NCBI GenBank assembly: GCA_902364645.1
Contig: CABJEP010000001.1
Span: 315,947 to 379,946 of the forward strand
Length of the DNA: 64,000 bases
Direction of reading: 5' to 3'
Source of the DNA: Coriobacteriaceae bacterium
Lineage (GTDB): Bacteria > Actinomycetota > Coriobacteriia > Coriobacteriales > Coriobacteriaceae
Shown: positions 2,508 through 58,518 of the stretch, piece by piece
Layout of the letters: each line of letters begins with the position of its first letter
How positions within the stretch are numbered: position 1 is the first letter of the stretch
Notes under the pieces: generated by a model
What the model was told of the DNA's origin: nothing
Database searches by the model: none
The model's input: the letters and a program-made list of their open reading frames with translations, nothing else
Position numbers and translations under genes: made by a program

Positions 2508-2519
2508 AAGATCACCTGC

Positions 2520-2703
2520 CTCTTTCATCCGGACTCTAACCGTTGGTACTGGGATCTCACCAGTTCAGCCGGCATGCGAACCAACGCACACACGGGTCGC
2601 GGACTCATCGGCTCGGTCGCAGGCACTTTACCTGCGCCACGGCGCCCCTTTGACACCGCCCGATTTACCGCCAGTGGGGAATTCCACCCCGCCCTGAAAC
2701 AGT
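2520..2703 (-). promoter_or_regulatory. FMN riboswitch (RFN element)
   Basis: On the minus strand the conserved RFN blocks occur in order: TTCAGGGCGGGGTGGAATTC, CCCAC..GGCGGTAAAT, a GAGTCCGCGAC-like block, and the 3' block AGTCCGGATGAAAGA. These are the FMN-binding junction elements. The terminal ..GATGAAAGAGGCAGGTGAT runs straight into the ribU ribosome binding site, and I see no separate terminator. FMN-dependent closure of the RBS (translational control) is therefore the more likely mechanism. Confidence 0.95.
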
Positions 2704-2705
2704 GA

Positions 2706-35216: not shown

Positions 35217-36998
35217 ATGCTGCTTACGCAAACGACAACGCCCGAGGACGTCAAGGCTCTCGATCGCGCCGAGCTTCCGCTGCTCTGCGGCGAGATCCGC
35301 CACGCCATCCTCGAAAGCTCCGCCGCCGTCGGCGGGCACGTTGCCCCCAACCTGGGCGTCGTTGAGCTTACGGTTGCGCTCCATCGCGTGTTTAACTCCC
35401 CCATCGACAAGATTGTCTTTGATGTTTCGCACCAGACCTACGCCCACAAGGCGCTGACTGGGCGCGCGTACACTTATATCGATCCGGAGCGTTATGGTGA
35501 GGCTTCTGGCTTTGCCAATCCCGACGAGTCCGAGCACGACCTGTTCGCCATGGGCCACACCTCCACGTCGGTGAGCCTGGGCTGCGGCCTAGCGCACGCT
35601 CGCGACCTGGCGGGGGATACATACAACGTCATCACCATCATCGGCGACGGCTCGCTTTCGGGCGGTTTGGCGTTTGAGGGCTTTAACAATGCCGCCGAAC
35701 TCGATAGCAACCTGATCATCATCGTCAACGATAACGACCAGTCCATCGCCGAGAACCACGGTGGCCTCTATCGCAATCTGGCCGAGCTGCGCGCCAGCAA
35801 CGGCACCTGTGAGCGCAATGTTTTCCGCGCGATGGGGCTCGACTACCGCTATCTGGACGCCGGTAACGACGTGTTGGCCCTAGTCGACGCGCTGCAGGAA
35901 CTACGCAATATCGATCATCCCATCGTGCTGCACGTCTCCACCGCCAAGGGCAAGGGCTTTGAGCCGGCCCAGAACGACCCCGAGCGCTGGCATCACGTAG
36001 GCCCCTTTGACATGGCGACCGGCCGAAAGCTCTGCCCGGGCCATCCGAGCGAGCCTGCGCCGCGCACCTACGCCGACATTACGGGCGAGGCGCTCAGCGC
36101 CGCCATCGAGCGCGATCCGCAGGTTGTGGGCATCACGGCTGCCACGCCCTACATCATGGGCTTTACACCCGAGCTTCGCGCCGCGGCAGGCAAGCAGTTT
36201 GTCGACGTGGGCATTGCCGAGGAACACGCCGTGACCTTTGCCACCGCGCTCGCCAGCGCCGGTGCCAAGCCGGTCTTTGGCGTGTACGGCACGTTTTTGC
36301 AGCGCGCCTACGACGAACTGTGGCACGACCTGTGCCTCAACGACGCCCCCGCAACCATCTTGGTGTTTGGCGCGTCGATCTTTGGCACCACGTCCGAGAC
36401 GCACCTTTCGTTCTTTGATATTTCCATGCTGGGCGGTCTTCCCAACATGCACTACTTCGCGCCGGCCTGCATGGAGGAATATCTGTCCATGCTGAGCTGG
36501 TCGCTCGATCACCGCGAACATCCCGTGGCGATTCGCGTGCCGGGCATTGGCTTGGTAAGCCGCCCCGACTTGGCGCCTGCCGAGGACGACGATTACGGCG
36601 TCGCGCGCTACAACGTGGTGTGTCAGGGCCGCGACGTAGCCGTGCTCGCGCTCGGCGATTTCTTTGAACTGGGCGAGCGCGTGGCAAACCGCTTGGCTGC
36701 CGAGTACGGCATCGAGGCCACGCTCGTCAACCCGCGCTTTGCAACCGAGCTCGACCACGAGTTCCTCGACAGTCTTGCCGCCGAGCATCGCGTTGTCGTC
36801 ACCCTCGAGGACGGCATCTTGGACGGCGGCTGGGGCGAACGCGTGGCATGTTATCTGGCATGCACGCCGTTGCGCACGCGCACCTTCGGCATCGCCAAGG
36901 GCTTCCCCGACCGCTACGACCCCAACGAACTGCTTGCGCGGAACGGCATGACGGTCGAGAACATGGCCGCCGAAGCCGTAAGGCTACTGAACGAGTAA
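35217..36998 (+). CDS. dxs: 1-deoxy-D-xylulose-5-phosphate synthase
   Basis: A 593-aa transketolase-fold enzyme. The thiamine-diphosphate motif is GDGSLSGGLAFEGFNNA. DXS markers are SHQTYAHKALTGR, GHTSTSVSLGCGLA, the catalytic-Glu segment VGIAEEHAVTFATALA and a C-terminal VTLEDGILDGGWGERV. It condenses pyruvate and glyceraldehyde 3-phosphate in the first step of the MEP isoprenoid pathway. It is a little shorter than the usual 620-640 aa. GGAG lies upstream of the ATG. Monocistronic, with a strong terminator. Confidence 0.92.
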   Translation: MLLTQTTTPEDVKALDRAELPLLCGEIRHAILESSAAVGGHVAPNLGVVELTVALHRVFNSPIDKIVFDVSHQTYAHKALTGRAYTYIDPERYGEASGFANPDESEHDLFAMGHTSTSVSLGCGLAHARDLAGDTYNVITIIGDGSLSGGLAFEGFNNAAELDSNLIIIVNDNDQSIAENHGGLYRNLAELRASNGTCERNVFRAMGLDYRYLDAGNDVLALVDALQELRNIDHPIVLHVSTAKGKGFEPAQNDPERWHHVGPFDMATGRKLCPGHPSEPAPRTYADITGEALSAAIERDPQVVGITAATPYIMGFTPELRAAAGKQFVDVGIAEEHAVTFATALASAGAKPVFGVYGTFLQRAYDELWHDLCLNDAPATILVFGASIFGTTSETHLSFFDISMLGGLPNMHYFAPACMEEYLSMLSWSLDHREHPVAIRVPGIGLVSRPDLAPAEDDDYGVARYNVVCQGRDVAVLALGDFFELGERVANRLAAEYGIEATLVNPRFATELDHEFLDSLAAEHRVVVTLEDGILDGGWGERVACYLACTPLRTRTFGIAKGFPDRYDPNELLARNGMTVENMAAEAVRLLNE

Positions 36999-36999
36999 A

Positions 37000-37041
37000 A
37001 AACCTCCGCAAGGGAAGCACCCCTGCGGAGGTTTTTATTTT
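37000..37041 (+). terminator. Terminator of dxs
   Basis: AACCTCCGCA pairs with TGCGGAGGTT, followed by TTTATTTT. Confidence 0.95.
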
Positions 37042-37054
37042 CGCGACGCGATTA

Positions 37055-37270
37055 TCTCAATCTGTAACATCTAGGGCCCGAATTCCCGTCTATCTGTTAC
37101 AGATCAAGACAAGACGTCTTAGTCCCTGACCTTTGTCTCAATCTGTAACAGATAGAGACCTTTTGGCCGTCCAGATGTTACAGATTGAGACATTCGAATT
37201 CCCCTGAAGAGAAAATCTCAATCTGTAACAGTTACTCGGCAAAAATGGCTGCAGATGTTACAGATTGAGA
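37055..37270. repeat. Three tandem inverted-repeat modules (TCTCAATCTGTAACA)
   Basis: Six copies of TCTCAATCTGTAACA or its complement lie at 37055-37069, 37095-37109 (two mismatches), 37136-37150, 37176-37190, 37216-37230 and 37256-37270. They form three convergent pairs, each exactly 55 bp long with a 25-nt centre, starting 81 and 80 bp apart. The centres differ in sequence. The core is itself near-palindromic (ATCTGTWACAGAT). The array lies between dxs and the amino acid transporter operon; no ORF is present. Confidence 0.95.
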
Positions 37271-37302
37271 CAAAACAGTAAGGCATGCCGTTGCATCGGT
37301 CA

Positions 37303-37347
37303 AAACCACCACGAAGGTGCCTGTGAACCTGTCCCTTTTTGGTAGGT
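37303..37347. repeat. Composite of two dispersed repeats (partial copy 3)
   Basis: ACCACCACGAAGGTGCCTG, like 16512-16530, is joined to GAACCTGTCCCTTTTTGGTAGGT, the right half of the dispersed palindromic repeat. The left half of the latter is missing. Confidence 0.7.
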
Positions 37348-37462: not shown

Positions 37463-38455
37463 ATGAGCAAGAACCTCTCCCAGCAGGTCGTTCTCGACCG
37501 CCGCGGCTTCGTCGCCGCCACCTTCGCAACCGTCGCCGGCCTTGGTCTTGCCGGCTGCTCCGACACCAGTACCGAGGCCGACAAGGGTTCCGCCGGTTCC
37601 TCCAAGAGCTCCGAGGATACCGAGGTTTCCGCCACGCTCGACGCCAAGGCATTCGACAAGCTCGTCAACGACGGCCCCAAGGCCGATGACGACGCCATCG
37701 CCGCCAGCACCTGGGCTACGGCCGTCAAGGATGCCGGCGTCTTTACGATCGGTGGCGTCCAGACCTCCACGCTCTTCTCCCTCCTCAACGAGAAGGACGG
37801 TCAGACCCGCGGCTTCGACGCCGGTATCGCACAGCTCCTGTCCAACTACATTCTGGGCGAGAACAAGGTCGAGATCACCCAGGTGACCTCGGACACGCGC
37901 GAGTCCGTCCTGCAGAACGGCCAGGTCGACGCCGTCTTTGCCACCTACACCATCACTGACGAGCGCAAGAAGCTCGTCTCCTTTGCCGGTCCCTATTACT
38001 ACACGCAGCAGGCCATCCTGGTACTCGCCGATAACGACGACATCAAGAGCGTCGACGACCTGGCCGACAAGAACGTCGCCGTCCAGTCCGGCTCCAACGG
38101 CCCCGCCATCCTGGAGGAGCTCGCTCCCAAGGCCAGCCAGCAGGAGTTCAAGACCGACGAGGAGGCCCGCCAGGCACTCCAGCAGGGTCGCGTTGACGCC
38201 TACGTCATCGACAACAACATGCAGCAGAGCGCCCTGGTCCGCGAGCCCGGTAAGTACAAGATTGCCGGCAAGCCCTTCGGCAGCAAGGAGCCCTATGGCA
38301 TCGGCCTGCCGCTCGATTCCGACGGCGTCGCCTTCGTCAACGACTTCCTTAAGAAGATTGAGGACGACGGCACCTGGACCGAGCTGTGGCAGATCTGCAT
38401 CGGCGACCGCACGGGCGACACCAATGTTCCCGAGCTGCCCGAGATCGGCGCCTAG
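37463..38455 (+). CDS. Amino acid ABC transporter substrate-binding lipoprotein
   Basis: A 330-aa protein. The signal sequence has a twin-arginine pair (DRRGFVAATFATVAGLGLAGC) with lipobox LAGC at about residues 29-32, so it should be a Tat- or Sec-exported lipoprotein needing Lgt. A Ser/Asp-rich linker leads to an SBP_bac_3 domain (FTIGGVQTSTLFSLLNEKDGQTRGFDAGIAQLL, DAVFATYTITDERKKLVSFAGPYYYTQQ). It captures polar amino acids, likely glutamate/aspartate by similarity, for the permeases encoded downstream. RBS AAAGGTG. Confidence 0.93.
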   Translation: MSKNLSQQVVLDRRGFVAATFATVAGLGLAGCSDTSTEADKGSAGSSKSSEDTEVSATLDAKAFDKLVNDGPKADDDAIAASTWATAVKDAGVFTIGGVQTSTLFSLLNEKDGQTRGFDAGIAQLLSNYILGENKVEITQVTSDTRESVLQNGQVDAVFATYTITDERKKLVSFAGPYYYTQQAILVLADNDDIKSVDDLADKNVAVQSGSNGPAILEELAPKASQQEFKTDEEARQALQQGRVDAYVIDNNMQQSALVREPGKYKIAGKPFGSKEPYGIGLPLDSDGVAFVNDFLKKIEDDGTWTELWQICIGDRTGDTNVPELPEIGA

Positions 38456-57218: not shown

Positions 57219-57283
57219 AGTTGCGGTGAAATAGTTCCCGCTTAGCCCGCAAATGGCTGAATCTAGAAACTATTCCACCGTAA
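57219..57283. repeat. Inverted repeat upstream of the XRE membrane regulator
   Basis: TAAGTTGCGGTGAAATAGTT (57218-57237) and the near-complement AACTATTCCACCGTAACTTA (57268-57287) face each other. The outer 12-13 bp are the same as those of the element at 58450-58518. Confidence 0.75.
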
Positions 57284-58449: not shown

Positions 58450-58518
58450 AAGTTGCGGTGATATAGGGACTGTTTTGAGGCTCCAAAGCGCCAAACAGTC
58501 CCTATATCACCGCAACTT
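58450..58518. repeat. Perfect 26-bp inverted repeat (AAGTTGCGGTGATATAG)
   Basis: The arms 58450-58475 and 58493-58518 are exactly complementary (AAGTTGCGGTGATATAGGGA plus CTGTTT), with a 17-nt centre. It lies 50 bp after the XRE stop. The 58519-58849 stretch holds no gene I can support; a 91-codon minus-strand frame ends inside this repeat and looks spurious. Confidence 0.9.

Follow-up and report, generated by a model that had tools for sequence, protein, structure and literature searches.

The intergenic space between dxs and an amino acid transporter operon contains one of many chromosomal copies of an array built from inverted 15-bp repeats. We see about an even chance that these copies are phased, sequence-specific protein-binding DNA, probably with an architectural or insulating role. 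A protein lattice is the best fit because half-sites, a central A-tract and interval lengths are fixed while the remaining letters are free, the two arms of a unit vary almost independently, and the sites are dispersed among unrelated neighbours.

In the window (i.e. the whole 64-kb stretch of DNA that was analysed), the array sits between the frames at 35217-36998 (dxs) and 37463-38455 (the transporter binding protein), with the dxs and transporter names taken from a first-pass annotation made from the sequence only. The 15-bp repeat TCTCAATCTGTAACA occurs six times at 37055-37270 (five exact copies, one with two mismatches) in three convergent pairs; this count and the geometry given by that annotation (55-bp modules with a 25-nt centre, starting 81 and 80 bp apart) were both confirmed. 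At up to three mismatches, the 64-kb window held seven matches to TCTCAATCTGTAACA against 0.60 expected and a maximum of two across 100 shuffles, the seventh (37144, minus strand) overlapping the copy at 37136. Unit 1 consists of an exact plus-strand arm (37055..37069), a 25-nt core (37070..37094) with GAATTC in the middle, TAG at the left edge and CTA at the right edge, found in 13/13 aligned relatives, and the minus-strand arm with two mismatches (37095..37109). A 26-nt linker (37110..37135) leads to unit 2, where exact arms at 37136..37150 (plus) and 37176..37190 (minus) enclose a 25-nt core with TTTT in the middle (37151..37175). Beyond a 25-nt linker (37191..37215) follows unit 3, with exact arms at 37216..37230 (plus) and 37256..37270 (minus) around a 25-nt core with AAAAA in the middle (37231..37255). 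Steps between the six successive arms measure 40, 41, 40, 40 and 40 bp, with alternating orientation. Since the gaps between modules (26 and 25 nt) resemble the 25-nt centres within them, this is one alternating 40/41-bp array; the earlier description as three modules was right about the pairs and wrong about their separateness.

Directly after dxs, an inverted-repeat scan located a plus-strand terminator-like repeat with 17-nt arms (36998..37036), probably the dxs terminator; the terminator scan listed a minus-strand candidate alone near this position. With this repeat in place, the array would lie downstream of the likely end of the dxs transcript. Part of another Collinsella repeat, a 33-bp palindrome (AACCACCACAAAGG...CCTTTGTGGTGGTT), was recognised by eye at 37302..37324, 31 bp past the last arm. 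An FMN riboswitch (Rfam RF00050) is present on the minus strand at window positions 2513-2705.

The arm is abundant in the nearest genome (G001), with 82 matches at up to two mismatches compared with two for a reversed control. Searching 297 genomes of the order for whole units (CTGTAACA-N24-26-TGTTACAG), as the first-pass annotation had proposed for the motif and its spacing, recovered them in 24, all within the single genus Collinsella. Among its 43 genomes, 22 carried 19-52 units, two carried one unit and 19 had none; the 254 non-Collinsella genomes of the order contained no units. The genus name draws on contig titles and on the 88-96% DNA identity that the best matches of carriers showed to the dxs region of the window. 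Eight dxs-region loci from non-carriers contained no tandem series, with isolated inverted repeats in two. The number of array loci was 18 in G059, 22 in G024 and 15 in G014, the latter two counted from listed pair matches. A contig scan found arrays on at least 120 stretches, all from Collinsella among the matches listed; viral contigs contained no exact matches. The densest stretches held seven arrays in ∼22 kb (G024 C1, 55.8-78.2 kb) and five in 42 kb (G059, 1051-1093 kb). The single units in G028 and G013, outside the carrier group, each lie at 1493-1547 of their stretch, and the G028 unit precedes a frame whose start resembles that of a clpB-like frame beside a G059 array; they may be relics or have arrived by transfer. 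A search of open-licence PubMed Central articles returned no paper recognised as describing the arrays, and spellings of the arm sequence occurred in none.

Geometry was assessed in the window and 120 further loci, which contained 158 arm groups (nine of them single arms), 144 of which open with a plus arm and close with a minus arm. Adjacent plus-minus arms were 40 bp apart (25-nt core) in 389/394 cases and adjacent minus-plus arms 40 or 41 bp apart (25- or 26-nt linker) in 241/250, in a 120-locus set where the fetch pattern pre-set one pair per locus to 24-26 nt. G059 was read whole without the 24-26-nt condition, joining arms only at 37-43 bp, and yielded 18 arrays with 90 arms, a further pair of arms at 693952, within a frame and with four and three mismatches, being excluded as chance. 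Its cores were 25 nt long in 43 of 44 instances, and its 28 linkers measured 25 nt (18), 26 nt (nine) or 24 nt (one). Compared with the 90 arms within arrays, only two isolated arms with at most one mismatch were detected in G059, both at broken arrays. With 10.5 bp per turn, the 80.5-bp repeat spans 7.7 turns, and the helical fit is not simple.

Among 163 usable arrays, 18 flank-matched groups had at least three members; one of these groups combines two G059 arrays, i.e. not all groups are strictly orthologous. Thirteen of the 15 arm positions changed far less than the flanks: substitution per pair was at most 0.009 at arm positions 1-3 and 12-14, compared with 0.22-0.29 in flanks past 4 bp, while the variable arm positions 5 and 4 reached 0.327 and 0.193, and core positions 12 and 13 stood at 0.048 and 0.035. 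These counts exclude core or linker runs below 60% identity and incomplete arms, and arms with more than four mismatches were uncounted, which lowers the measured arm divergence. Indel events per kb numbered 0 in arms, 0.70 in cores, 3.62 in linkers and 8.53 in flanks, a roughly twelvefold deficit in cores relative to flanks; this comparison used pairs with the same number of arms, up to 60 from each group, with flank divergence ≤0.25 and arm alignment of ≥90%. Core substitution was 0.155 versus 0.102 in flanks, core swaps included. The arms behave as nearly independent half-sites under purifying selection and core length is guarded from indels, which together support protein binding.

The view that arms are kept and centres are not proved accurate for the arms and partly inaccurate for the centres, which across the family have TAG/CTA edges and a central A-tract in common. 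Before any orientation, A or T fills core positions 12-14 in 96-98% of the 332 unique 25-nt cores. When cores are oriented by their A-rich strand, 119 of 124 non-redundant ones yield the consensus nCTAGnnGnCAAAAnCGGnTCTAGn, whose central A arises by construction from that orientation. The near-palindrome ATCTGTWACAGAT noted earlier is not a family feature, since among the same 332 cores base 1 is G in 37% and base 2 is A in 4%; nor does the family conserve a palindromic extension of the arm.

The first-pass annotation had left the choice between protein binding on DNA and structured RNA. Under the latter reading, the units would be transcribed as hairpins or processed small RNAs, and both strands indeed fold far below shuffled sequences (z -11.0 and -10.1), although folding z-scores of this kind are expected from inverted arms alone. 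Most arm positions are nearly invariant, which leaves mainly the strongly variable 4 and 5 for a test of covariation, and none was seen there: across 453 units both arms were alike in 0.713 (0.709 expected) at position 4 and 0.503 (0.499 expected) at position 5. Position 6 showed a slight excess (0.936 vs 0.927 expected, z 3.1), which favours RNA. Pairing between core halves (130 non-redundant cores) was below expectation at several positions and nowhere clearly above it, with positions 1/25, 8/18 and 12/14 under-paired (z -4.0, -5.3 and -7.3; the 12/14 value reflects the A-tract). Apart from the FMN riboswitch elsewhere, no Rfam family reached its gathering threshold in the window. Because the arms are near-independent and the core halves under-paired, selection for a hairpin is not supported and the data speak for two protein half-sites, with the qualification that the arm positions closed to this test hardly vary. 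Thus, we regard structured RNA units as very unlikely and retain, by inference, the protein side of the earlier alternative.

At the dxs locus, an alignment of the window and 13 relatives (nine of 22 loci were omitted, the dxs anchor being absent from the strand read) showed six arms in 14/14 sequences with spacings within a base. For the third core, two versions unlike each other were found, in 8/14 and 6/14 sequences, the latter being dissimilar to the core of the window. Recurrence of the units in other Collinsella genomes and near-constant spacing between relatives, even though module number varies, favour a real feature over the chance duplication that had earlier been considered. Unit number differed in 16 of the 18 groups when both flanks were required and no decayed unit adjoined; in the window's group, 20 arrays have three units and two have two. 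Cores of the same array resemble each other more on the same strand (mean likeness 11.96 of 25) than on the opposite strand (9.44), compared with 10.65 on either strand for cores from different groups, although the 441 within-array pairs are not independent. The same-strand likeness fits arrays that grew as the 80-bp module was duplicated in tandem.

The strongest rival to a protein-binding lattice is mobility, in which a selfish or mobile REPIN/MITE-type element, non-autonomous and moved by a transposase of the Y1 (RAYT-like) or another kind, generated the arrays. Inverted doublets, their dispersal in intergenic DNA and the varying unit number are all consistent with such an origin, as is the presence of at least one Y1 match in 22/22 carriers compared with 15/21 other Collinsella genomes, including in G007 an IS200-like 167-aa frame ∼1.7 kb from an array. 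The 33-bp palindromic repeat also occupies the same intergenic spaces as the arrays, being found in G059 in 6/17 array intergenic regions versus 6/308 array-free ones of at least 250 bp (Fisher p 6e-6), and at two array-free G059 sites (∼1178 and 2249 kb) palindromes border the array present elsewhere. However, none of 12 Y1 matches in G059, G014, G024 and G001 had a listed array within 36 kb on its contig, and compensatory pairing is little or none. Positional conservation likewise argues against mobility: of 139 arrays from other sequences with flanks of at least 250 bp on each side, 86 coincide with an array at the corresponding G059 site, where the arms are under purifying selection, while 15 map to array-free sites and 38 were not placeable. 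The 15 correspond to five array-free G059 sites, one of which keeps a single arm, and inspection by eye of 13 arrays at four such sites revealed no clean insertion junction, some looking like loss. On balance, we consider a mobile origin rather unlikely.

Half copies of the 33-bp palindrome form three pairs in G059 with 1,474 bp between the halves, as though an insertion had divided them. One unit's core contains an insertion sequence (G059, 1828658-1830073) that matches a MULE/Mutator-type transposase, and 8 bp of the core seem to be duplicated; the insertion sequence is not array-specific, only one of its three close copies in G059 being in an array.

A regulatory role of the conventional kind, with the arrays as operators of a transcription factor controlling the flanking genes, could be suggested by the placement of the window array between dxs and the transporter operon and by the four of 18 G059 arrays between divergent genes. 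Nevertheless, seven of the 18 are between convergent genes (the other seven being co-directional), where genes are simple ORF calls; the start of one frame overlaps an array by 27 bp, and a very weak frame overlaps another. Convergent sites were weakly enriched (7/18 vs 158/826; one-sided p 0.041, two-sided 0.063). A Pfam scan of flanking frames, which omitted some flanks crossing stretch borders, gave matches for 23 of 28 references (one of the five without being a 51-aa piece), comprising enzymes, a transporter, a helicase, a kinase, a zinc-ribbon protein, a peptidase, a LacI-type regulator and a transposase. No common function or pathway was evident among the scanned genes, and operators are in our estimation unlikely.

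The lattice reading is more readily reconciled with this context, since arrays that adjoin unrelated genes in every orientation, and without a common gene function, point to an architectural or insulating role. On the scale of the chromosome, 16 of the 18 G059 arrays were within 705 kb of dnaA (p 0.011, with a cut-off chosen post hoc). Placement by origin and terminus was rejected, as the largest gap was not unusual with clusters collapsed (P 0.37), and so was an alignment of A-tract direction with replication (21 with, 19 against). A tRNA scan of four G059 stretches found none.

Among known repeats, BIMEs (bacterial interspersed mosaic elements) are extragenic, dispersed, regularly spaced and alternating in orientation, and the Collinsella arrays share these four properties. 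BIMEs also bind gyrase, IHF or Pol I. Yet the units of BIMEs are REPs, i.e. palindromes, whereas the arms here are asymmetric, and what the cores and linkers keep is their length, not their sequence. REPINs have two invariant 16-bp ends, inverted at a fixed distance, are extragenic and sometimes form tandem clusters, ordered clusters being nearly identical copies; their spacers fold into hairpins in which compensatory changes are common, and RAYT genes are found nearby (PMC3116915). The 15-bp arms, with 389/394 pairs at 40 bp, are likewise inverted doublets at a fixed distance. They differ from REPINs in that there is no preference for pairing, the cores are unlike one another and most checked Y1 matches are far from arrays. 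The arrays resemble BIMEs or dispersed chromosome-organising sites, yet lack the hairpin of REPINs and the palindromic unit of BIMEs.

Dispersed chromosome-organising sites include parS (bound by ParB), Noc sites, the ram sites of RacA and matS (bound by MatP). Like these, the arrays supply many chromosomal copies of a motif that is not tied to a regulon; structural protein binding is established for the former and would apply here by inference. The known sites are single and short, unlike the phased pairs with a central A-tract described here. The arrays are interspersed extragenic repeat arrays distinct from parS, CRISPR and TIGR-Tas. parS is a TGTTTCACGTGAAACA-type palindrome near the origin; the arms differ from it, and three exact parS copies ∼6 kb from dnaA in G059 are separate from the arrays. 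These three palindromes (1745189, 1745228 and 1745267) are themselves spaced 39 bp apart. A second, Noc-like ParB was considered and rejected, with extra matches in 9/22 carriers and 6/21 other Collinsella genomes; the main ParB is present in 22/22 and 20/21, respectively.

Conserved repeats separated by variable 25-nt spacers are also what a guide array, CRISPR-like or of the TIGR-Tas type, would look like. Here, however, the repeats alternate in orientation, the cores are conserved across species at the orthologous dxs locus and have an internal consensus in common, and the 44 G059 cores match the rest of that genome at no higher level than shuffled or column-chimeric controls. TIGR-Tas has a Nop-domain Tas protein, and Nop-domain matches were found in none of the 43 genomes, compared with 4/14 control genomes. 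A guide function is therefore extremely improbable.

Under the protein-lattice reading, the 55-bp unit would represent two inverted half-sites, TCT(C/a/t)RATCTGTAACA then nCTAG, and the A-tract in the centre between them may bend the helix or make it narrower. A putative sequence-specific protein would occupy each half-site, bridge the centre and, possibly cooperatively, contact the next unit 80/81 bp on. Such bridging and contact are proposed as the reason that core length is kept and its letters are free. The likeliest role would be to shape the chromosome locally or to insulate transcription units from one another, rather than to control one gene. More tentatively, and with some doubt, the arrays may form a chromosome-organising system of the C. 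aerofaciens group, in which an undescribed sequence-specific protein acts as a phased, possibly DNA-wrapping lattice on about twenty intergenic arrays and sets local domains. Collinsella aerofaciens is common in the human gut. The arrays are defined to the base, and a synthetic array could serve to fish out a ligand. If architectural, the arrays would be a chromosome-structuring system of new design; if BIME-like, they would shed light on the long-standing problem of BIME function.

Lastly, the window contains further inverted repeats at ∼58453-58500 and 57221-57260 (TTGCGGTGATATAGGGACT and a look-alike), which may be another dispersed repeat family; a similar string was also found on another stretch.
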